From Amphiura filiformis (lineage: Eukaryota; Echinodermata; Ophiuroidea; Amphilepidida; Amphiuridae), in the NCBI RefSeq assembly GCF_039555335.1, contig NC_092628.1, positions 101,764,647 to 101,828,646 of the forward strand: a DNA stretch of 64,000 bases. The letters run 5' to 3'. The notes under the pieces were generated by a model. The model saw only the letters and a list, made by a program, of their open reading frames with translations, was not told the DNA's origin and did not search any database. Below, in pieces: positions 58,501 through 61,256 of this stretch. The translations under genes were made by a program, and so were the position numbers. Within the stretch, counting starts at the first letter, position 1; every line of letters starts with the position of its first letter.

Positions 58501-61256
58501 GTCAAAATAAAATAAAGAAGAAATGATTCTCTTATTTCACTTGCCAGTTGGTTCATAGCACAGTGACCCTTCAAGGAGCTGTAGATATCAGTCATTTCCA
58601 TGCCTTAAGTATGGGACAGTATTTATTTTGGGACATCAGAGCACATCAGACATATCGAATTGCATTCTGAATACGAAGAATGTCATTCTGATATCAAATA
58701 ATTTTGATTTTTGAAATTCGCAATTTAATACACATTTTATGGCAAATCATTAAAATTGATATTTTTGATATTTAACAGTACTAAAAGTAAACTTTATAAA
58801 TCTGATGATTTATACTTAAAGTGTATGTAGGTGGGATGAAAAGCCGACGATCAATTGAAAATTTTGACCTTTCAGTATTGAAGATATGGATTTTTTTCCC
58901 AAAACACCAAAAAAAATTAGGTCTTTTTGGGAAAAAATCCATATCTTCAATATGAAAGGTCAAAATTTTCAATTGACCGTCGGCTTTTCCTCCCAGCTAC
59001 ATACACTTTAAGAATATATCATTAGATTTATATAATTTACTTCGAGGACTGTTATATATCAAAATTTGAAAAATATCAAATTTTATAATTTGTCATAAAA
59101 TTTGTATTATATTGTGATTTTCAAAAATGAAAATTATTTGATATCAGAAAGACATGCTTCAGTATTCAGAATGCAATTCGACAGGTCTGAGGTACTCTCA
59201 TGTCCCACAAAAAATACTGTCGAAACGCAATAAACGCTCATTCTAGATCCCTTAACCTTCTATAATTCTCTTATATCTCTTGCCAGTTGGTTCATAGCAC
59301 AGTGACCCTTCAAGGAGCTGTAGATATCAGTCATTTCCATGCCTTGACCTTCTATAATTCTCTTATATCTCTTGCCAGTTGGTTCATAGCACAGTGACCC
59401 TTCAAGGAGCTATAGATATCAGTCATTTCCATGCCTTAACCTTCTATAATTCTCTTATATCTCTTGCCAGTTGGTTCATAGCACAGTGACCCTTCAAGGA
59501 GCTATAGATATCAGTCATTTCCATGCCTTAACCTTCTATAATTCTGTTATTTTTCTTGCCAGTTGGTTCATAGCACAGTGACCCTTCAAGGAGCTGTAGA
59601 TATCAGTCATATCTATGCCTTGACCTTCTATAATTCTCTTATATCTCTTGCCAGTTGGTTCATAGCACAGTGACCCTTCAAGGAGCTATAGATATCAGTC
59701 ATTTCCATGCCTTAACCTTCTATAATTCTGTTATTTTTCTTGCCAGTTGGTTCATAGCACAGTGACCCTTCAAGGAGCTGTAGATATCAGTCATTTCTAT
59801 GCCTTGACCTTCTATAATTCTCTTATATCTCTTGCCAGTTGGTTCATAGCACAGTGACCCTTCAAGGAGCTGTAGATATCAGTCATTTCCATGCCTTGAC
59901 CTTCTATAATTCTCTTATATCTCTTGCCAGTTGGTTCATAGCACAGTGACCCTTCAAGGAGCTATAGATATCAGTCATTTCCATGCCTTGACCTTCTATA
60001 ATTCTCTTATATCTCTTGCCAGTTGGTTCATAGCACAGTGACCCTTCAAGGAGCTATAGATATCAGTCATTTCCATGCCTTGACCTTCTATAATTCTCTT
60101 ATATCTCTTGCCAGTTGGTTCATAGCACAGTGACCCTTCAAGGAGCTGTAGATATCAGTCATTTCCATGCCTTAACCTTCTATAATTCTCTTATATCTCT
60201 TGCCAGTTGGTTCATAGCACAGTGACCCTTCAAGGAGCTGTAGATATCAGTCATTTCCATGCCTTGACCTTCTTAGAAATCAAACGAGTGCCTGTCCATC
60301 TGCTGGTGGGATTGAAAGATTTAAGACGTCAACTTGAGGTTCTTATATGCTCCAGAAGTCTAACATCAATAAGTGTAAGTATATGGGTTAGAAATCAAAC
60401 GAGTGCCTGTCCATCTCCTGGTGGGATTGAAAGAATTAAGACGTCAACTTGAGGTTCTTATATGCTCCAGAAGTCTAACATCAATAAGTGTAAGTATATG
60501 AATGCCACACTTTTACTCTGATTTAAAAACAAAACAAAACTTGATGTAATCTGATGGGAATGACATTTGTTACATCTGTTTCCAAATGGGCTATTCCAGT
60601 TGATTCCAGCCCACCACTCGAGGCCAAAAATGCACAATTTTATTGAATTAGTCAATAATTTGGTGAATTTTGGCAACAATTTCTAAATGTACAAATGCTG
60701 CCTAGCACTTAAGATATCCTTGCTACAACTATGTTAGATTCACAGTGGATTACAACTCCAGAACAAGAAAGAAGCCTGATCAACACAGCAAACTTAACAA
60801 TCCATGCTTTTTTCTTATCATTGATTTTGCACTTATTTGTTTCAGTCATTACTTCAATCGTGTGGAGGAGATATGACATCATCAGCTCCATGGCCTGCCT
60901 TGCATACAGTCAATCTCAGTCATAACCACATAGATAAATTAGATGACTCTTTGGTAAGTACACGCATGGATACTCTGATTTTGAATAACAATGACTTTTC
61001 AAGTAGGGTCGGTCAGTCTGGAATTTTTTCTTCTGCGCATCTGTGTGGCCTCGCGATGTAAACAACGCGGAGGAAGCGGATGCATCGTTGTTAAATGACA
61101 ATGGTGAAACATGGTTGAATCCCTAAGTGTACTATAAGTCTATATTTTTAGGTTTATATTGACTTTATCCTTATTTCTTTTCAGAAACTGCTACCATCAG
61201 TAAAAGTTCTTGACCTAAGTCATAATGATATCAAACATGGCAGGAATTATTTAGAG
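55443..61256 (+). CDS. STK11IP: STK11IP (LKB1-interacting protein 1), 5' part of gene, exons 1-5
   Basis: Exons 55443-55518, 56267-56454, 60207-60374, 60846-60953 and 61185-61256 join in phase to give 204 residues, open at the right edge. The strongest match is QLEVLICSRSLTSIS, then SLLQSCGGDMTSSAPWPALH and leucine-rich repeats VNLSHNHIDKLDDSL and VKVLDLSHNDI. Human STK11IP has QLETLICSRSLQALEELLSACGGD and FLNLSHN at the same places. Known role: binds the LKB1 (STK11) kinase and is found on cytoplasmic and lysosomal compartments. The N-terminal ~85 residues are more divergent. The full vertebrate protein is about 1,100 residues, so most of the gene lies to the right. Confidence 0.88.
55798..55987. 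mobile_element. GGGCTATTCCAG MITE, copy 13 (STK11IP intron 1)
   Basis: GGGCTATATTCCAGATGAAA to TTTCAACTGGAATAAC, full length with well preserved arms. A bare left end of the family (GGGCTATTCCAGTTGA) also lies at 60587-60602 in STK11IP intron 3. Confidence 0.88.
56267..56454 (+). CDS. STK11IP: STK11IP exon 2
   Basis: 62 codons after the split Gly: SQIQDKTNKFSLSS, then LVYLNKCFHHLIQH, and QDVAYLLDFFKRAHAVK. QDVAYLLDFFKRAHAVK parallels the LQFLFDVLQKTLSLK helix of human STK11IP just before the leucine-rich repeats. Acceptor CACACAG, donor AAG|GTAAGT, phase 0. Confidence 0.85.
57238..58475 (+). repeat. Dimeric tandem array with GACCTTTGACCCC motif, bounded by ACACAGCCGTG
   Basis: Six monomers of 144-146 bp start at TACCGGAAGTGACCCC-like sites (57414, 57552, 57696, 57841, 57985, 58132). 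They alternate between a TGTACACCCCATAGACACTG type and a ATACCACATATACATTGGG type, giving a ~290-bp dimer. ACACAGCCGTG lies at the left edge (57272) and in a strong hairpin at the right (58442-58470, CACAGCCGTG...CACGGCTGTG). Located in STK11IP intron 2. Perfect TGACCTTTGACCC sites lie at 57287, 57861, 58153 and 58290. Confidence 0.85.
58542..60272 (+). repeat. 92-bp tandem array of an STK11IP splice acceptor plus exon start, 12 copies
   Basis: TGCCAG acceptors start at 58542, 59281, 59373, 59465, 59557, 59649, 59741, 59833, 59925, 60017, 60109 and 60201. Each unit is 67 nt of exon 3 (TTGGTTCATAGC... to ...GACCTTCT) followed by 25 nt of intron end, including the pyrimidine tract and CAG. A 643-bp TTAA element plus its 4-bp duplication interrupts unit 1; removing 647 bp restores exactly 92 bp. 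Units differ only at a few sites (TTA/TTG, CTG/CTA, two with a T-rich tract), indicating recent or homogenised expansion. Confidence 0.95.
58609..59251. mobile_element. TTAA-flanked inverted-repeat element, copy 2 (643 bp)
   Basis: It is flanked by TTAA at 58605-58608 and 59252-59255. The uninterrupted site is seen in sister repeat units (GCCTTAACCTTC), which proves a TTAA duplication. Long imperfect inverted repeats run nearly the full length, with no ORF. It is the same family as 1248-1913. TTAA targets are typical of piggyBac-like transposases, but these ends read GGG...CCC inward, so the superfamily is left open. Confidence 0.88.
60207..60374 (+). CDS. STK11IP: STK11IP exon 3, at the end of a 12-copy splice-acceptor array
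   Basis: 56 codons: LVHSTVTLQGAVDISHFH, ALTFLEIKRVPVHLL, and LRRQLEVLICSRSLTSIS, phase 0 at both ends. Acceptor CTCTTGCCAG at 60206, donor AGT|GTAAGT. The 3' splice site and first 67 nt occur 11 more times upstream at 92-bp spacing, and the last 102 nt with the donor occur again at 60388-60489. Only the 60206 acceptor reaches the complete open exon. Exons taken from earlier acceptors read into the next unit out of frame and meet a TGA. Confidence 0.88.
60273..60500 (+). repeat. Duplication of the 3' half of STK11IP exon 3 with its donor
   Basis: Positions 60273-60387 and 60388-60500 are near-identical (period 115 bp). Each holds the last 102 nt of exon 3 (from TTAGAAATC) and the donor AGT|GTAAGTATATG. 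The second donor is at 60489/60490. The second copy is in the intron and has no acceptor, so it should not be spliced as an exon by itself. Confidence 0.92.
60846..60953 (+). CDS. STK11IP: STK11IP exon 4 (SCGGD motif and first leucine-rich repeat)
   Basis: 36 codons: SLLQSCGGDMTSSAPWPALH, then TVNLSHNHIDKLDDSL. The CGGD and PW-x-L residues and the LRR consensus L-x-x-N-x-I/L match STK11IP. Acceptor TTGTTTCAG, donor TTG|GTAAGT, phase 0. Confidence 0.9.
61185..61256 (+). CDS. STK11IP: STK11IP exon 5 (second leucine-rich repeat)
   Basis: 24 codons KLLPSVKVLDLSHNDIKHG, RNYLE, one leucine-rich repeat. Acceptor CTTTTCAG, donor GAG|GTAAGG, phase 0. No later exon is visible in the remaining 2.7 kb, which is a long duplicated repeat. 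Confidence 0.88.

Follow-up and report, generated by a model that had tools for sequence, protein, structure and literature searches.

In a 64,000-nt stretch of the genome of the brittle star Amphiura filiformis (contig NC_092628.1, positions 101,764,647 to 101,828,646 of the forward strand; hereafter, the window), the splice acceptor of exon 3 of STK11IP, together with the start of the exon, is present in 12 near-identical copies. The array is probably a minisatellite spanning an exon–intron boundary, of the type termed 'mirages' in amphioxus, and mostly silent for the protein: its anatomy can be read directly from the DNA, and its silence is deduced from the disposition of the splice sites. 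The same exon also carries a duplication of its donor side, and a second splice-junction array lies elsewhere in the window, at a kinase-domain exon of LMTK.

Anatomy of the acceptor array

An exact 19-mer spanning the acceptor occurs 12 times on the forward strand of the window and not at all on the other. Successive matches are separated once by 739 bp and then 10 times by 92 bp, such that the 92-bp period is exact in 10 of the 11 spacings (those within copies 2–12); Tandem Repeats Finder reports the repeat at 59250–60273, with a period of 92, 11.1 copies and 96% matches. An earlier note on this DNA had described 12 copies with an exact 92-bp period: the copy number stands, but the period fails between copies 1 and 2, where a foldback transposon flanked by TTAA, inserted in the tail of copy 1, widens the spacing to 739 bp. 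The contiguous array thus comprises 11 copies, with copy 1 interrupted by this element.

The limits of the unit are given by the copies at either edge: the similarity between copies 1 and 2 stops 25 nt 5' of the acceptor, and that between copies 11 and 12 stops past exon base 67 (60273). The unit therefore consists of intron positions −25 to −1 followed by exon positions +1 to +67 (25 + 67 = 92 bp), which bears out the claim that it joins the acceptor to 67 nt of exon, and the 12 copies extend across 58523–60273 (+ strand). Copy 1 (58523–58608; first exon base 58548) retains the original intron flank, and the remainder of its tail, past the foldback element, lies at 59250–59261 and includes the second TTAA. 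Copies 2–12 (11 × 92 bp) occupy 59262–60273, with first exon bases at 59287, 59379, 59471, 59563, 59655, 59747, 59839, 59931, 60023, 60115 and 60207. There are 86 different 40-mers that occur at least five times in the window, and, since all of them are confined to 58540–60265, a chance origin of the array is excluded.

The mean pairwise identity of copies 2–12 is 97% (55 pairs), with eight variable columns in the examined stretch; these amount to seven sites per 92-bp period, since columns −33 and +60 are one site, one unit apart. Moreover, a two-unit pattern recurs in copies 4–5 and 6–7. Judged from these variants, such a pattern is what would be expected of a minisatellite turning over by unequal exchange. 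A TTCT microhomology shared at the unit boundary had been proposed as the cause of the duplication; the junction does join exon position +67 (...CCTTCT) to intron position −25, but in copy 1 position −25 is preceded by AGAA, and, with the motif absent from one of the two breakpoints, we reject this proposal. Just 5' of the array, intron 2 of STK11IP contains a further tandem repeat, with a 290-bp unit and 3.4 copies (57276–58260).

The host gene and its intact exon

Five exons of STK11IP are recognized on the forward strand: the coding part of exon 1 from its ATG (55443–55518), exon 2 (56267–56454; donor AAG/GTAAGT), the intact exon 3, which extends from acceptor 12 to donor 1 (60207–60374; 168 nt, in phase 0 at either end), exon 4 (60846–60953) and exon 5 (61185–61256). 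The exons were placed by reading frame and splice signals, and they are collinear with two orthologues. Joined together, the five exons give 204 open codons, the introns having GT and AG ends, and from the exon coordinates the introns upstream and downstream of exon 3 are 3,752 and 471 nt long, respectively. Within the window, no STK11IP exon is recognized beyond exon 5, and the gene probably runs on past it. A large direct duplication lies 3' of exon 5 (61711–63998; 750 bp at 99% and 291 bp at 98%, approximately 1.1–1.2 kb apart), and each of its copies contains 164-bp tandem repeats.

The 204-residue product matches two Pfam LRR families above their curated cut-offs, and the LIP1 family (LKB1-interacting protein 1) with an E-value of 1e-4 and 23 bits, below the cut-off of 26.3. 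A search with the 204 residues themselves gave none of 107 candidates at E ≤ 0.001, presumably as full-length relatives fall outside the length limits; a padded protein search gave two of 994 at this threshold, namely STK11IP of the caecilian Microcaecilia unicolor (E 5e-25, 36% identity, 93% of the query) and an unnamed protein of 1,396 residues (42% identity over 85%). In the exon 3 part, both orthologues align with gaps of at most one residue and without a duplicated segment; because of these alignments, we take the gene to be STK11IP and the conserved exon 3 to run from acceptor 12 to donor 1. The original identification of the gene as STK11IP is thus confirmed by the caecilian match together with the LRR and LIP1 matches. 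Among the 60 PDB matches listed for the 204 residues there are only LRR proteins, the best being Nischarin (E 7e-8), and STK11IP is not among them. A 22-base exon pattern found no match in public viral contigs.

Coding outcome of splice-site choice

In the reconstructed gene, the frame stays open from acceptor 12, whereas a start at any of acceptors 2–11 (10 of 10) meets a TGA after 108 nt, in the following unit, and a start at acceptor 1 meets one after 120 nt, inside the foldback element. Two assertions of the earlier note, that the last copy alone gives the full exon and that exons begun earlier read into a TGA, are accordingly upheld for all 11 upstream acceptors. An exon begun at copies 1–8 would be 536–1,827 nt long, and one begun at copies 9, 10 or 11 would be 444, 352 or 260 nt long, respectively. 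A stop also follows if exon 3 is spliced from its second donor; omission of the whole exon keeps the frame, since it is 168 nt long and in phase 0.

The acceptor CAG is kept in all 12 copies. Additionally, all 11 of copies 2–12 contain a YTNAY motif whose A falls at −32 and whose sequence comes from the exon portion (CCTTRACC) that closes the previous unit; in copy 1, no YTNAY motif occurs between −45 and −15. Were the −32 motif to serve as the branch point, the duplication would have made complete acceptor modules of copies 2–12.

The foldback element

The insertion in the tail of copy 1 (58609–59249) has TTAA on both sides and long inverted repeats, the arms (112, 99 and 60 nt) being 87–89% complementary, and so displays both features of a TTAA-type foldback transposon. 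The uninterrupted equivalent of its insertion site, as seen in copy 3, is CCTTAACC. A relative with 84% identity over 632 aligned positions lies on the other strand at 1263–1883, likewise between two TTAA sites; compared with it, the array's copy has a shortened left end. We take the family to be that of the TTAA-inserting (piggyBac-type) non-autonomous foldback elements, with which the two copies in the window share the TTAA on both sides and the long inverted repeats. Unlike the array itself, the element is an accessory that was inserted into it. Its insertion probably came later than at least one duplication, because insertion into a single-copy exon would have broken the gene.

Duplication of the donor side

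The 3' half of exon 3 and its donor are present in two copies with a 115-bp step (60273 to about 60502, + strand), the donors following 60374 and 60489. Over the first 115 bases the two copies differ at four positions, including two at the junction. Base 60273 is both the last of the 92-bp unit and the first of the 115-bp unit, giving the acceptor-side and donor-side duplications a common breakpoint at 60273/60274 (with an ambiguity of one base). Our guess at the cause of this coincidence is a single break that was repaired with copying on both sides. We considered and set aside a direct conversion of an ABAB arrangement, as left by duplication of the whole exon, into the observed AA..BB, since further events would be needed to give the present order.

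A second array at a donor of LMTK

A second gene, on the minus strand, is also affected. The exon at 24309–24436 encodes part of a kinase domain, assigned to a lemur-tail kinase on the basis of its best PDB match (LMTK3, E 6e-13), and is followed by an array of its donor (23690–24308). The first intron bases lie at 24308 (the authentic donor), 24180, 24052, 23924 and 23792, all five with the same nine bases, CAG/GTAAGA. With donor 1 alone the exon is open; donors 2–5 lead to a stop after 43 codons. The last copy of the array also repeats the end of the exon, and by eye the inner units resemble a tRNA-derived short interspersed element (SINE) joined to the donor; ARAGORN (bacterial code) found no tRNA genes, and Rfam gave no matches at gathering scores. 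The earlier note had mentioned neither this array nor the foldback insertion and the donor-half duplication in STK11IP.

A probably mostly silent array

We propose that the array began as a tandem duplication of a 92-bp piece made up of the last 25 nt of intron 2 and the first 67 nt of exon 3, and that repeat turnover then raised the number of copies to 12. In this scheme, in which the order of events is our best reconstruction, the TTAA-inserting foldback element entered the tail of copy 1, and the opposite side of that break in the exon was duplicated once. A tandem duplication that covers one exon boundary leaves, by geometry, an intact exon between the innermost acceptor–donor pair, and indeed this pair gives the sole open exon in both STK11IP and LMTK. 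Exon definition across the 168-nt exon would mostly pick acceptor 12 and donor 1, with the remaining copies passed over as part of an intron. Occasional splicing at the other sites would generate stop codons 5' of later exon junctions, and the resulting transcripts would presumably be removed by nonsense-mediated decay.

The dimensions of the locus suit such a mechanism, as exon definition favours the innermost pair and would thereby keep the array mostly silent in splicing. In the available parts of PMC9225289, 250 nt is used as the intron limit for exon definition, and approximately 500 nt is quoted for the efficient inclusion of an exon between long introns; both introns flanking exon 3 exceed the former value, and the exons that would begin at acceptors 1–8 exceed the latter. 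The view of the earlier note, that selecting the last acceptor presents a special difficulty that throttles output, is thereby weakened: across the exon, no acceptor is closer to the donor than the last one, and amphioxus genes with this geometry are reported to be spliced regularly, without interference (PMC3087553; PMC3902484).

Several observations nevertheless weigh against complete silence. The acceptors themselves do not mark out copy 12, because the pyrimidine fraction at −20 to −4 is 0.82 in all 12 copies and copies 5 and 7 are richer in T there than the others. Nor do the donors discriminate, as donors 1 and 2 of exon 3 are equal (both 7/9 to consensus, with a U1 duplex of −5.9 kcal/mol), and three of the four other donors of STK11IP pair better with U1 than they do. 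Moreover, upstream 3' sites are described as preferred overall, a preference that is lowered by long flanking introns and exon definition; that it is reversed at every site is not stated in the section devoted to it (PMC9225289). The splicing rules of the source organism may also differ. Given the upstream preference, the equal pyrimidine fractions and the equal U1 pairing of the donors, some leakage into decay-prone transcripts is likely.

Alternative explanations

The same facts could be read as a copy-number throttle, in which the acceptors compete almost equally, exon 3 mostly starts early, the transcripts decay and STK11IP output falls with the number of copies. The near-identity of the acceptors, the branch-point-like motif belonging to each of copies 2–12, the TGA that all 11 alternative acceptors meet 5' of later junctions and the overall upstream preference speak for it. 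We think it unlikely, although worth serious consideration, as the intact exon corresponds to the innermost pair, the intron lengths favour exon definition, and the published mirages are reported, in the accounts available, without interference in splicing (PMC3087553; PMC3902484). A related proposition, which strikes us as speculative, is that such arrays are a phenomenon of animals more widely, hidden from selection by exon definition, and that the present one (12 acceptors, two donors around one exon) has reached a size at which allele length tunes the productive fraction of STK11IP mRNA; if so, the locus would provide a natural cis-competition series for the choice of 3' splice site.

It is very improbable that an assembly artefact inflated the copy number or mis-joined the array. 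The analysis is based on a single assembly, and the draft-genome version of one mirage appears, from the relevant part of PMC3087553, to be aberrantly assembled; against this stand the variable columns and repeated two-unit pattern among copies 2–12, the distinct copy at the left edge, the transposon inside the array and the separate arrays on the donor side of exon 3 and in LMTK.

We give next to no credence to a nascent exon or intron, whereby parts of the unit would be used as mini-exons or the array would be on the way to becoming an intron, a model put forward for amphioxus globin genes (PMC3087553). Some units do contain a 33-nt in-frame piece ending at GTAGAT, but this is ATAGAT in five of the 12 copies, and in the three 92-bp units examined no GT exceeds 5/9 of the consensus, the best U1 duplex being −2.6 kcal/mol versus −5.9 kcal/mol for donor 1. 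With weak donors alone in these three units, mini-exons from inside the unit were rejected. That this haplotype carries a damaged STK11IP allele on its way out, as duplication on both sides of exon 3 and the transposon insertion might suggest, is scarcely credible when the frame runs open through 204 codons in five exons, with splice signals in place and collinearity with two orthologues, and copy 12 is identical to copies 2 and 8 over the first 60 exon nt.

Relation to known systems

As described in the available parts of PMC3087553 and PMC3902484, the mirages of amphioxus are tandem repeats over exon–intron boundaries that are reported not to disturb regular splicing, and length polymorphism, germ-line or somatic, is a further trait of the type; they are found in Adh3, troponin C, the globins BflGb6 and BflGb9, and PGBD5, those of PGBD5 and troponin C having been added by PMC3902484. 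All four of their structural features recur here, namely, a boundary-spanning unit, an intact exon, retained splice signals and the involvement of several genes (STK11IP and LMTK, within the window). From the same descriptions, the likeness extends to a unit of tens to approximately 160 bp, a location on either the acceptor or the donor side, an authentic exon intact at the edge and homogenized inner units. The differences are the copy number (12, compared with six and three in two BflGb6 haplotypes and up to seven in PGBD5), the duplication of a single exon at both of its boundaries, from a shared breakpoint, the foldback transposon inside the array, and the source, a brittle star rather than a cephalochordate. 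In a search of one open-licence literature collection, boundary minisatellites were found described for amphioxus only, and the array is probably a new, long member of a known repeat type in a new phylum. Intron gain by tandem genomic duplication, as outlined in the accessible portions of PMC4974935 and PMC3087553, likewise involves an internal tandem duplication of gene sequence that carries splice signals; it differs in needing a usable donor as well as an acceptor in the duplicated exon piece, and the three units examined here have no strong donor.

Given the echinoderm source, splice-junction minisatellites would occur beyond the cephalochordates, and the presence of two affected genes within 64 kb suggests that they may be common in this genome. 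The survival of such repeats would also have a simple reason: when a single boundary is duplicated, the innermost sites still enclose an intact exon. Length alleles of the array would amount to a natural version of duplicated-splice-site experiments; 12 near-identical acceptors whose main difference is how far they lie from the donor can tell apart first-come, intron-proximal and exon-definition rules.

Other features of the window

The G+C content of the window is 36%. Among the best 120 of 1,281 relatives of a reverse transcriptase encoded in the window, all five that carry an organism name are from Amphiura filiformis (45–71% identity). A direct repeat of 1,243 bp (38654–39892 and 43722–44954; 98.6% identical, 5,068 bp apart) encloses a minus-strand open frame of 320 residues (42391–43353), and the whole looks like a young long terminal repeat (LTR) retrotransposon. 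At 15843–16071, a 45-bp repeat of approximately five copies falls within a minus-strand open frame (15081–16124) with a 15-residue protein repeat. Finally, a dispersed repeat family of approximately 190 bp occurs in both orientations, its copies being about 70–89% identical to one another, at 463–661, 4325–4524, 5726–5897, 11043–11220, 16241–16432, 16693–16881, 19834–20017, 27098–27286, 31472–31710 and 55794–55988.

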